DNA of 64,000 nucleotides from Rhodococcus pseudokoreensis (lineage in GTDB: Bacteria; Actinomycetota; Actinomycetes; Mycobacteriales; Mycobacteriaceae), in assembly GCF_017068395.1 (NCBI RefSeq), contig NZ_CP070619.1, positions 7,936,001-8,000,000 of the forward strand. Reading direction: 5' to 3'. Under the pieces are notes generated by a model. That model did no database searches, was not told the DNA's origin, and saw only the letters and a program-made list of their open reading frames with translations. The position numbers were made by a program, and so were the translations under genes. The stretch's first letter is position 1. The number at the start of each line of letters is the position of its first letter. Positions 44,395 through 46,867 of the stretch are shown piece after piece.

Positions 44395-45360
44395 TCAGGC
44401 TTTCTCGCCGGTGGACGGCTCCAGGGACTGCGCGTCCGCCTCGTTGGGCGCGTCGATCTCGGCGTCGATCCGGTGCAGATCGCCCGCGGCCTCTGCGGCG
44501 CTGAGACGCGAACGGCGCCACGCGACGACCAGCAGTCCGGCCCACACCGCCACGAGCGCGACGTAGCCGAGGGCGGCGACGGCCCCCGTCACGTCGAATG
44601 TCTTGAACAGCTTCTGCGCGTTGGTGATGATGATGATGCCGCCGACACCGGTGCCCAGAAGGGTCGCAGGCACCCGGCTGACGAGCCACGCGGCGACCGG
44701 TGCGGCGATGATTCCGCCGAGCGCCAGACCCGCGATGATCGGGATGTTGTCGAAGAAGTCGCTGCCGAGCCCGAAGATGAATCCGATGCTGGCCGCGGCG
44801 GATACCAGGAACTCCGACGCGCTGACCGAGCCGATGACGGTGCGCGGTGCGGTCTTGCCGCGCGAGAGCAGCGTGCTGGTGGTGATCGGTCCCCAGCCGC
44901 CGCCACCGCTCGCGTCGATGAATCCACCGAACAGTCCGAGCGGTGAGAGGAACTTTGCCGTGTGCGGCGACGTCCGGGCGTCGTTGACGGCGGGAGGGCG
45001 GATCGAGAAGCGCAGGAGGACGTAGACGCCGATTGCCAGCAGGATCGTGGACGTCACGGGGACGGCGGCGGCCGTCGACAACTGCGACAGCACCGTCGCG
45101 CCGAGGAATGCGCCGATCGCGCCGGGGACGCCCAGGCGCAGCACGAGGGACCAATCGATGTTGCGGAACCGCCAGTGCGACGCGCCGGAGGCGAGCGTGG
45201 TGCCGACCTCGGCGAAGTGCACCGCTGCGCTGGCGTGGGCAGGTCCGACGCCGCTGAACACGAGCAGGGTGGTCGCAGTCACACCGAACGCCATGCCGAG
45301 GGCGCCGTCGACCAGCTGGGCACCCACGCCGACCAGCGTGAAAATCAAGAGCTTGAACAT
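44395..45360 (-). CDS. TauE/SafE-family sulfite/sulfonate exporter
   Basis: 321 residues with about eight membrane helices. Paired TauE motifs are visible: GALGMAFGVTATTLLV near 20-35 with HFAEVGTTLASG, and GFIDASGGGGWGPITTSTLL near 145-165 with GSVSASEF. Members export sulfite, thiosulfate or sulfonates. GGAG stands 5 bases before the ATG. A 33-codon leader ending Cys-Cys-stop lies upstream, implying control by cysteine supply. The C-terminal tail after the last helix is hydrophilic. Confidence 0.9.
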   Translation of the reverse strand: MFKLLIFTLVGVGAQLVDGALGMAFGVTATTLLVFSGVGPAHASAAVHFAEVGTTLASGASHWRFRNIDWSLVLRLGVPGAIGAFLGATVLSQLSTAAAVPVTSTILLAIGVYVLLRFSIRPPAVNDARTSPHTAKFLSPLGLFGGFIDASGGGGWGPITTSTLLSRGKTAPRTVIGSVSASEFLVSAAASIGFIFGLGSDFFDNIPIIAGLALGGIIAAPVAAWLVSRVPATLLGTGVGGIIIITNAQKLFKTFDVTGAVAALGYVALVAVWAGLLVVAWRRSRLSAAEAAGDLHRIDAEIDAPNEADAQSLEPSTGEKA

Positions 45361-45400
45361 CGAGACTCCGACCGAGAGAGCGAACCGTCAGGGCAGCAAA

Positions 45401-45436
45401 GACCAGCGAGCAGGCTGGTCAGCAACATCCCTGGTC
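45401..45436 (-). promoter_or_regulatory. alternative stems at the leader stop codon (putative attenuator)
   Basis: On the minus strand GACCAGC (45420-45414), which begins inside the leader TGA, pairs with GCTGGTC (45407-45401) around a 6-base loop. The same GCTGGTC can instead pair with GACCAG inside the leader (45436-45431, codons Asp-Gln). A ribosome stalled on the Cys-Cys codons at 45427-45422 would decide between them. Confidence 0.55.
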
Positions 45437-45520
45437 GAAGGCATGGCCTCGGCGGGAGGGCCAGAAGGGCATGAGGGCGAGCGAGGCCGCGGGGCCTGCC
45501 TGCGCGCTCGTGCCGTTCAC
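45419..45520 (-). CDS. putative cysteine leader peptide (uORF) of the TauE/SafE gene
   Basis: 33 residues from GTG 45520, which has GGGAG 5 bases upstream; an inner ATG at 45472 would give 17. The C-terminus is RRGHAFDQGCC, so the last two sense codons before TGA are TGT TGC. The TGA lies 58 bases before the TauE/SafE ATG. Actinobacterial leader peptides with Cys runs near their ends are known to control sulfur genes by cysteine-dependent attenuation; this one fits by position, end and target, but is inferred from sequence alone. Confidence 0.6.
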   Translation of the reverse strand: MNGTSAQAGPAASLALMPFWPSRRGHAFDQGCC

Positions 45521-45589
45521 TCGAACTCCCGAATCTCTCGTCGTGTGCACGGCCGTCCGCGCACAGGGTTCGACATTAGCGGCAGGAGT

Positions 45590-45616
45590 GGGCGCGTGTC
45601 ATCTTCACACGCGCCC
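45590..45616 (-). terminator. terminator of the trans-enoyl-reductase-like gene
   Basis: GGGCGCGTGT and ACACGCGCCC, 10-base arms with a 7-base loop, begin 7 bases after the stop of the minus-strand gene ending at 45623. There is no T tract. Confidence 0.7.
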
Positions 45617-45622
45617 AACCGC

Positions 45623-46867
45623 TCACAGTTTTCGCGCAGAGATCTCGAAACCCGCGTCGCGCAGCCGTGAAACCAGCACGTCGCCGAGCGCCGTCGCCGG
45701 AGTGAGAACGCCCGCCGCGTCCGGCAGCGCGTCGCCGCCGAGGACGAGACTCAACGCGGATTCGCCGAGCATCACCGCGGTGGCGCGGTAGCCGGGGTCA
45801 CCCTTCGCCTTCACCCGCGACGTGTAGTGGGCGCCCGTGGTCGTGGTTGTGTACAGGTCGACGGTGAAGTGGCCGTTGCGTTGCGCCTCCTCGCTGGGAC
45901 CGTCGCCCGGTGAGGGCAGCACGCGGTCGAGGACGTAGCGGGTGGGCGGGAGGGCCATTCCGCCGATCAGCGCGCCGAGGCCGACCGTCACCGCGCCCGC
46001 GATCACCGGCGTGATCGGGGAACTGCCGACGCTCATGACCTCGCGGTACTTGAATTCCCGGCCGTACGCCCAGTCGCGGAGCGCGTTGCTGCGCCGCACG
46101 ACCCGCGTGTTGTAGGGGCCCATGAAGAACGGCGCCTTCCAGCCCTTGACGCCGGGCGCGATGGTCTTGCCGTCGACCACGCCCATGTCGGTCTGCTTGC
46201 CGAGATCGGGTTCTTTCGACCGGTCGGGGCTCAGCGAGTACGGAGAGGCCGCGAGACGGCGCGACGCCGCATCCTTCTTGGACACGTCGACCTGAGTGCG
46301 GAGCGAATCGATCGTGCCGCCGCTGACGCCGCCGCGCAGCGACGTGACCACGAGGGTGGTGTCGGTGAGTTCGCCGGCGCCGTCCTCCCGGACCTTCGCG
46401 TGCAGGACGTGCACCCCGAGGTCGGACGGAATGGAGTCGAATCCGCAGGAGTGGACGATCCGGGCGCCGGTCTCGCGGGCCCGTTCGTGGTTGGCGTCGA
46501 TGCTCTCGCGGGCGAACAGCACCTCTCCGGTGAGGTCGACGTAGTCGGTGCCCGCCTCGGCGCAGGCCGCGGCCAGTGCGTGTCCGTACTTGGCGTAGGG
46601 CCCGACCGTCGTCGCGACCACGCGGGTCCGTCCCGCCAGGGCGGCGAGCGACGCGGCGTCGTCGGAGTTCGCGACGATGACGGGCCAGTCCGCCGCGCGC
46701 GGACCGAGCGAGGACCGCACCGTCTCCAGTTTGGCGGCCGTCCGTCCCGCGAGCGCGATCCGGACACCGTCCGGGGCGTGCTGAGCGAGATAGTCGGCGA
46801 GAAGTTTGCCGACGAAGCCGGTGGCCCCGTAGACGACGAGATCCAATTCACGCGTGCTGTCTGTCAT
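45623..46867 (-). CDS. trans-acting enoyl reductase / saccharopine dehydrogenase-like protein
   Basis: 414 residues. Rossmann motif LVVYGATGFVGKLLADYLAQ near 10-29, then IALAGRTAAKLE, TTVGPYAKYG and YVDLTGEVLFARESI, the pattern of the mycobacterial trans-acting enoyl reductase group (Rv2449c/Rv2953-like). A helix-forming segment near 290-305 (VIAGAVTVGLGALIGGMALP) fits the lipid-linked members. It probably reduces a double bond in a lipid or polyketide intermediate; the substrate is unknown. The ATG is the first in frame. Confidence 0.87.
   Translation of the reverse strand: MTDSTRELDLVVYGATGFVGKLLADYLAQHAPDGVRIALAGRTAAKLETVRSSLGPRAADWPVIVANSDDAASLAALAGRTRVVATTVGPYAKYGHALAAACAEAGTDYVDLTGEVLFARESIDANHERARETGARIVHSCGFDSIPSDLGVHVLHAKVREDGAGELTDTTLVVTSLRGGVSGGTIDSLRTQVDVSKKDAASRRLAASPYSLSPDRSKEPDLGKQTDMGVVDGKTIAPGVKGWKAPFFMGPYNTRVVRRSNALRDWAYGREFKYREVMSVGSSPITPVIAGAVTVGLGALIGGMALPPTRYVLDRVLPSPGDGPSEEAQRNGHFTVDLYTTTTTGAHYTSRVKAKGDPGYRATAVMLGESALSLVLGGDALPDAAGVLTPATALGDVLVSRLRDAGFEISARKL

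Follow-up and report, generated by a model that had tools for sequence, protein, structure and literature searches.

Canestrari et al. 2020 are said to have described polycysteine leaderless short open reading frames (ORFs) of mycobacteria that respond to cysteine limitation, and pausing of the ribosome at the Cys codons has reportedly been proposed to release the ribosome site of the downstream gene. In arrest peptides such as TnaC and SpeFL, a conserved nascent chain leads up to a stall close to the stop codon, and Rho is involved in the case of TnaC. Cysteine-rich leaders also precede cysA2 and other mycobacterial genes, as stated in Shell et al. 2015 (PMC4633059). Passages of PMC9094748 and PMC13236596 refer to the polycysteine leader class, and the latter states translation attenuation for the cysteine genes of M. 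smegmatis. Candidate leaders of actinobacterial cys operons were presented by Seliverstov et al. 2005 (PMC1262725), where Rho is proposed in the available sections for the mycobacterial examples. Outside the Actinobacteria, excerpts of PMC8632094 describe uORFC-8-2 before cysS in Rhodobacterales, a leader with tandem Cys codons and a proposed attenuation mechanism.

We analysed a window, meaning a stretch of 64,000 nucleotides, from the 9.87 Mb, six-contig genome of Rhodococcus pseudokoreensis. On its minus strand, a saccharopine-dehydrogenase-like gene (46867-45623) is followed by a 33-codon frame (45520-45419), a TauE/SafE gene (45360-44395) and malate synthase G. The short frame begins with GTG at 45520, with the Shine-Dalgarno sequence GGGAG (45526..45530) located 5 nt 5′ of this codon, and its translation is VNGTSAQAGPAASLALMPFWPSRRGHAFDQGCC. 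Its last codons are the Cys codons TGT (45425..45427) and TGC (45422..45424) and the stop codon TGA (45421-45419), and the spacing from the stop to tauE is 58 nt. The gene that follows starts with ATG at 45360 and encodes a TauE/SafE family transporter of 321 amino acids (44395..45360; PF01925, E 3.5e-36) whose closest matches among the best 80 of 179 relatives are from Rhodococcus opacus, wratislaviensis and koreensis (96%). The preliminary description of this locus had pointed to a 33-codon frame with a ribosome site and a TGT TGC TGA end, and to a stem beginning inside the stop codon. Both features are present as described, the stem consisting of 7 pairs between GACCAGC (45420-45414) and GCTGGTC (45407-45401). 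An Rfam search of the region yielded a single sub-threshold match, to ASpks on the opposite strand (E 0.17, 24.1 bits, gathering 52).

The same leader (45419..45520 in the window) is widespread before tauE. Among the best 80 of 179 TauE relatives, a set from which Gordonia is absent, loose patterns located it upstream of 63 genes from Rhodococcus and mycobacteria, with its stop codon beginning 56-77 nt 5′ of tauE. The 17 loci that lack it are L033, L061, L076, L083 and 13 from Nocardia, which represent every Nocardia locus among those 80 (0/13 with the leader). When the window is included, the 64 leaders are 32-38 codons long, and an SD-like motif precedes the start in 60 of them by a loose test (a 4-base motif within 16 nt). 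They share a conserved core, L-x-x-F-W-P-[S/T]-R-R-x-x-[A/C]-F-D-x-x-C. Forty of the 64 leaders were aligned, and the columns that are invariant among these 40 are, in window numbering, the start, P10, L16, F19, W20, P21, R23, R24, D29 and C32. The F-W-P-[S/T]-R-R segment (codons 45449..45466 in the window) was demanded by the pattern used to make the set, whereas P10, L16, D29 and C32 were free to vary, and looser patterns added no leader.

The free positions are informative regarding the level at which selection acts. Counted from the F of FWP, Pro-9, Leu-3, Asp10 and Cys13 do not vary among the 58 distinct leaders, even without having been demanded by any pattern, and the Phe-Asp codons (TTC GAC, 45434..45439) encode Asp in 58/58 and Phe in 57/58. 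Where Pro, Leu or Arg is constant, in the core as well, each position draws on 3 to 5 synonymous codons, and this synonymous variation is evidence of selection on the peptide itself and not only on the DNA.

In contrast to the core, the precise end of the leader is variable. A Cys-Cys-stop end, which the preliminary description expected to be conserved, occurs in only 19 of the 64 leaders, all of them within the 24 Rhodococcus-type leaders, and mycobacterial leaders end with CCRRP, CCPRP, CRARI and similar sequences. That expectation therefore fails if taken literally, as it also does in Nocardia, but the broader idea of a cysteine-bearing leader before tauE survives because the first tail Cys codon is retained in 64/64 leaders. 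What is conserved is the core and this one codon. After the core Cys, all 64 leaders have a single Cys, Arg or Pro and no longer Cys run; among the 58 distinct leaders, the residue corresponding to the second Cys codon of the window is Cys in 41, Arg in 16 and Pro in 1. Eight of the 64 leaders carry one Cys in all and 27 carry two.

Some of the loci lacking the leader contain other elements. The Nocardia loci (L031, L032, L035, L036, L037, L039, L042, L046, L055, L056, L057, L070, L073) share, within the last 260 nt before tauE, a different common element, approximately TTCACGGTGATCGCAACC, positioned ~80 nt from the gene. A related stretch, ATCACGGTGATCGCAACC, also precedes tauE in L083, which is from Mycobacterium neglectum. 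This same locus retains the leader tail VIGVDRRCCPRP about 100-60 nt before tauE, with Cys-Cys kept and the FWPSRR core lost. In L061, from Millisia brevis, a different frame of 29 codons ending in Gly-Cys-Arg-stop lies about 190-100 nt before tauE.

Protein profile searches reveal that the core is not confined to tauE loci. At E <= 0.01, a profile of 40 leaders finds matches in 63 of the 397 genomes searched within the order; those near this threshold may be chance, and some genomes have 2 to 5 matches. From the 82 places found in this search, 70 were read (30 loci including 20 own-family leaders, plus 40 others), and the 12 left out are mostly the weakest. A profile of 50 mixed leaders matches 57 of 394 genomes of the class (E <= 0.001), and the loci read from these were the 19 that fall outside the own family. 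In a sample of 396 genomes of the phylum, whose share outside the class is not fully listed, the mixed profile matches 11 (E <= 1e-4), none of them beyond the own family or class. Further copies with support were not found in the R. pseudokoreensis genome (best other matches E 0.275 and E 0.101). A TauE-like product follows 12 of the 20 own-family leaders, and in the remaining 8 the longest frame is another one.

Outside the TauE loci, the core resembles LEPFWPGRRADAFDETCC and resides in a short frame 5′ of another gene. For these leaders W-x-x-R-[R/Q]-x4-D-x-x-C was demanded, and 66 of 69 loci fit. The three that were dropped are L135 (no Asp), L150 (frame ends FWPS) and L154 (UGA at the place of UGU). 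The frame ends no more than 14 codons past the Cys codon in 64 of the 66, a set that includes close relatives. One locus (L178) yielded no downstream gene, leaving 65 genes, which were chosen by GC3 and whose starts may be wrong. Their Pfam matches are CDO_I (18), Pro_CA (12), NMT1_2 (7), Trans_reg_C (7), SBP_bac_5 (6), Bac_luciferase (3), and one each of Cys_Met_Meta_PP, DUF4395, TauE, SBP_bac_1, OsmC and OpuAC; secondary cupin and binding-protein matches overlap among these. By Pfam name, 20 of the 65 are sulfur genes (CDO_I, Cys_Met_Meta_PP, TauE), and 11 more belong to families that are often sulfur-linked (NMT1_2, 7; Bac_luciferase, 3; DUF4395, 1). In several loci the frame after CDO_I is apparently rhodanese-like, as judged from N-termini read by eye. 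Carbonyl sulfide hydrolases exist among beta-class carbonic anhydrases, and carbonyl sulfide hydrolysis may account for the Pro_CA targets. The family is wider than the preliminary description anticipated, with many target genes beyond tauE.

Several of these loci have peculiarities. In L187 and L190-L194, which are probably from Streptomyces, a leader such as HDLEPFWPSRQHHDFDRVCCRA is found before a winged-helix protein (Trans_reg_C in L187 and L191), and this protein is a candidate sulfur regulator. Leaders of the form DLERFWMRRRAMSFDELC in L144, L145 and L147 precede genes without a known family (a Pfam search with L145 gave no match at E 0.001), and these genes may have a sulfur role. The leader-like frame of L154, LEPFWPGRRSDAFDGF, carries UGA exactly where the others carry UGU, and the next gene reads like a flavin monooxygenase.

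These leaders are also constrained at the level of the codon. The first Cys codon is UGU in 58/58 distinct TauE leaders. Profile searches are conducted in protein space and are blind to synonymous codon choice, and yet the corresponding codon is TGT in 66/66 pattern-fitting leaders before other genes, as well as in the dropped L135. By comparison, TGT accounts for 32 of 147 Cys codons in ORFs of the window and for 203 of the 1190 in ORFs from the loci retrieved (17-22%), a background of ORFs selected by length and GC3 in which related loci were kept unthinned. Other Cys positions within the leaders do not show this preference: TGC is used in 14/16 cases at position -5 and in 14/15 at position 8, and codons are mixed at position 11 (TGT 4/7) and position 14 (TGT 23/41). 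The neighbouring base is constrained as well. The core TGT is followed by T (36) or C (16) in 52 distinct TauE frames, and by C (35), T (24) or A (3) in 62 distinct non-TauE frames. Thus, G follows in 0/114 distinct frames, versus 19/32 and 84/203 of the background TGT codons. By extension from work on codon context, the UGU-pyrimidine context of these leaders is probably slow to decode.

These characteristics set the leaders apart from the polycysteine class, typical examples of which (RRAVDLCRVAGCCCC) are distinct from the leader of the window; two of them reside elsewhere in the same genome. A cysteine-rich leader such as RRAVDLCRVAGCCCCCCSC was found before a DUF4395 gene at 11 loci, in 10/10 genomes searched; the R. 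pseudokoreensis examples are L232 and L242 (G000:C6:2746584-2746991, 4791192-4791599), which carry an RRTVDLCR motif. These 11 are taken to be members of the known polycysteine class on the basis of their Cys runs and position. They display an RR-x-VDLCR motif followed by runs of 2 to 7 Cys, with TGT 40 and TGC 24 in the Cys tract and TGC for the Cys of DLC in 10/11. Like them, the window leader is a short frame with Cys codons near its end, where ribosome pausing is proposed, and lies before a sulfur gene as judged by the Pfam name of TauE, sulfite exporter; the enrichment of UGU in the polycysteine tract (40/64) also parallels the UGU preference described above. The window leader, in contrast, lacks the RR-x-VDLCR motif and has two Cys codons rather than many consecutive ones. 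Its class is recognized by FW-x-x-RR...FD-x-x-C, by a Cys count that is usually one to three, by one invariant UGU and by an SD-like motif, and the latter, found in 60/64 leaders, argues against the leaderless start that is a trait of polycysteine ORFs. A polycysteine DNA pattern was commoner than its reversed control in 0/7 genomes and was rejected.

Other described systems are more distant. The leaders of Seliverstov et al. (PMC1262725) share actinobacterial hosts, Cys codons near the stop, the lack of a terminator and possible Rho sites, but in the sections available they concern cys and cbs operons and runs of Cys codons, with no TauE, cysteine dioxygenase or FW-RR-FD core. The uORFC-8-2 leader differs, as far as the excerpts of PMC8632094 extend, in its occurrence in Proteobacteria, a U run as of an intrinsic terminator, the dominance of UGC and a tRNA synthetase target. 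For TnaC and SpeFL, the likeness consists of a conserved chain before a point near the stop, and we claim no sequence relation. The suggestion in the preliminary description that this is an undescribed relative of known cysteine leaders looks correct, as evident by the outcome of several searches: no NCBIfam or Pfam model fits the scanned leader members, one word-based protein search with a 43-amino-acid frame as query gave zero matches, and the strings FWPSRR, PFWPSR and FWPGRR were not found in the literature searched, which did not extend to supplements or Canestrari et al. 2020, where an earlier mention is possible. Literature searches on attenuation of TauE by leader peptides and cysteine (mostly judged by title) and on cysteine dioxygenase leader peptides in Streptomyces (judged by title) gave nothing on point.

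The manner in which such a leader might influence its downstream gene was considered through RNA pairing. The preliminary description had proposed that the 3′ arm of the stop-codon stem pairs alternatively with the Asp-Gln codons of the leader. The sequence does permit CTGGTC to pair with GACCAG (45436-45431), but this pairing is local and is not conserved beyond close relatives. As an antiterminator it was rejected, given that only 67.5% of cells are paired in a Rhodococcus set (n=14) and 355/500 shuffles are at least as high. An intrinsic terminator between the leader and tauE was likewise rejected: a consensus scan of 45330-45640 found no terminator-like or promoter-like site, and the hairpin, here called P2 (45401..45420, GACCAGC-CTGCTC-GCTGGTC), is followed by TTTGC and no long U run. 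The fold of 45472-45361 is mildly better than that of shuffled sequences (z -1.62; 16/200 shuffles at least as good).

RNAalifold analysis of the same Rhodococcus set retains P2 and predicts a long-range helix, P1, in which GCUUCGA of the Phe-Asp codons (45435..45441) pairs with UCGGAGU at the tauE ribosome site (45365..45371, including the Shine-Dalgarno GGAG at 45369-45366). The outermost of the 7 pairs is not formed in the window. In this set 95.9% of P1 cells and 88.0% of P2 cells are paired, together 92.3%, compared with 89.7% for shuffles (0/500 as high) and at most 50.3% for slid controls. Changes on both sides occur in 3 cells, all in P2, where they affect 2 pairs. The mycobacterial counterpart of these leader codons, GCUUUCGA, is complementary to UCGAAAGC upstream of tauE in 87.8% of cells (slid controls <=50.0%), a level not above shuffles, and covariation in P1 is absent; for this group RNAalifold gives a weak structure with 0 pairs changed on both sides and does not choose P1. 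Among leader segments at the TauE loci, the Phe-Asp segment has the most favourable duplex energy with the ribosome site (mean -12.6 versus -8.5 kcal/mol for shuffled sequences, lower in 56/59). Before other target genes, the Phe-Asp duplex is -10.1 versus -8.3 kcal/mol, lower in 39/61, and other leader windows pair better. From these models, pairing between leader codons and the tauE ribosome site is better conserved than the switch originally envisioned and is unproven. The link that P1 makes between the two speaks for a ribosome-controlled switch at tauE; the lack of mycobacterial covariation and of any special behaviour before other targets argues against a switch based on P1.

When a ribosome stalled at UGU is simulated, the tauE ribosome site becomes open in 21 of 60 leaders and closed in 4. 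Stalls placed 7, 11 and 15 codons earlier give open/close counts of 18/5, 10/5 and 10/13, and the site of the window itself is unchanged by the UGU stall (0.18 and 0.18). Because the stall 7 codons earlier acts nearly alike and the window does not respond, the simulated effect of stalling is small and not specific to UGU.

Considered together, the conserved peptide, its recurrence at sulfur-linked genes and the fixed Cys codon suggest that these leaders are probably cysteine sensors read by the ribosome. In our preferred reading, to which we assign an even chance from the sequence comparisons, the FW-RR-FD-C leaders would form a second class of cysteine-codon leader in which a stall at UGU switches the downstream gene under cysteine shortage. 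A ribosome would translate the 33-codon leader, and the nascent chain F-W-P-S-R-R...F-D together with the UGU-pyrimidine context would cause it to pause at the Cys codon (45425..45427), with the pause lengthening when Cys-tRNA is scarce. The paused ribosome would mask the Phe-Asp codons as well as the lower part of the hairpin at the stop codon. The masked codons could not pair with the tauE ribosome site, or Rho would be kept off the C-rich stretch that follows, and tauE would be on. When cysteine is ample, the ribosome would depart, the RNA would close or Rho would act, and tauE expression would be low. The preliminary description likewise had the leader couple cysteine supply to export of sulfite or a related sulfur compound, a role that is putative for this transporter. 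The leader, its conservation, the selection on the peptide, the fixed UGU and the recurrence before other genes are observations, whereas translation, stalling, polarity and the switching step belong to the model; the sensing end of this scheme is well supported, and its output end is tentative.

The polarity of the response may be interpreted differently. We regard shortage sensing as an evenly balanced proposition, and cysteine dioxygenase, the commonest target (18/65) and the one followed in several loci by the apparent rhodanese-like frame, is an odd choice for a shortage response. A single Cys, as in 8/64 leaders, is poor for starvation sensing alone, and L083, with the core lost and Cys-Cys kept, and L154, with UGA for UGU, also count against this reading. 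Cysteine dioxygenase with its apparent rhodanese-like neighbour, and a sulfite exporter, would be better accommodated if the chain and free cysteine or a sulfur metabolite arrested the ribosome at the leader end, as TnaC does with tryptophan, so that cysteine oxidation and sulfite export are turned on by excess. A plain codon counter would have no need for residues kept across more than 20 codons before the Cys amid free synonymous change, TauE is by name a sulfite exporter, and 35/64 leaders have one or two Cys only. Nevertheless, the NMT1-type solute-binding proteins, the Cys/Met enzyme and the luciferase-like monooxygenases among the targets better suit scavenging during shortage on general knowledge, and the strictly fixed UGU with its non-G neighbour suggests that what matters is decoding and not the finished peptide. 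We consider an excess-sensing arrest peptide of this kind somewhat unlikely, and attach a correspondingly limited weight to excess as the polarity. More tentatively than the shortage reading, we can envision that, across the actinobacterial class, the nascent chain and one obligatory UGU act together to detect cysteine, or else a sulfur metabolite, and possibly an excess of it. Such a sensor might set a dispersed regulon of cysteine dioxygenase, sulfite/organosulfur export, solute uptake and regulators, and it could conceivably represent an arrest peptide that takes its main input from how one codon, fixed among its synonyms, is decoded; both of these extensions are as doubtful as the joint sensor itself.

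At the output end, it is also conceivable, if rather improbable, that ribosome release at the leader stop bares a C-rich Rho entry region that a stalled ribosome hides, and that the pairing with the tauE site is incidental. This explanation overlaps the sensing part of our preferred reading and concerns only what follows from it. The 45 nt past the stop (45374..45418 in the window, a possible Rho entry region) average C 0.43 and G 0.25 over 64 TauE loci, with C exceeding G in 63, and the 66 other loci give C 0.44 and G 0.29, with C exceeding G in 57, compared with C 0.34 and G 0.33 in an upstream control. Composition is weak evidence alone, as evident by the fact that the upstream regions of 16 leaderless tauE genes, mostly from Nocardia, also have C 0.36 and G 0.29. 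The consensus scan that revealed no terminator-like site is consistent with Rho action, which is likewise what the available sections of Seliverstov et al. 2005 (PMC1262725) propose for mycobacterial cys leaders. Finally, strong residue conservation and a ribosome site would also be expected of a small functional protein with no regulatory role, such as a transporter partner. The core, however, precedes enzymes, solute-binding proteins and regulators without a common partner, the frame mostly ends no more than 14 codons past the Cys (64/66), and synonymous invariance of UGU is unexpected for a protein; we view this explanation as very improbable.

The leader family is real, conserved and, as far as our searches reach, undescribed, and the member in the window is one of many. 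If our interpretation is true, these leaders would stand beside the polycysteine class as a second class of cysteine leader peptides defined by sequence, and across a bacterial class ribosome-read sulfur control would reach genes for a transporter, for cysteine dioxygenase and for regulators. They would also exemplify short ORFs that are under strong selection and for which the searches made found no family model or protein match. The fixed UGU and its non-G neighbour offer a clean test of whether codon identity, beyond the amino acid, tunes such sensors. Moreover, for leader-bearing genes that have no assigned function, the presence of the leader suggests roles in sulfur metabolism.
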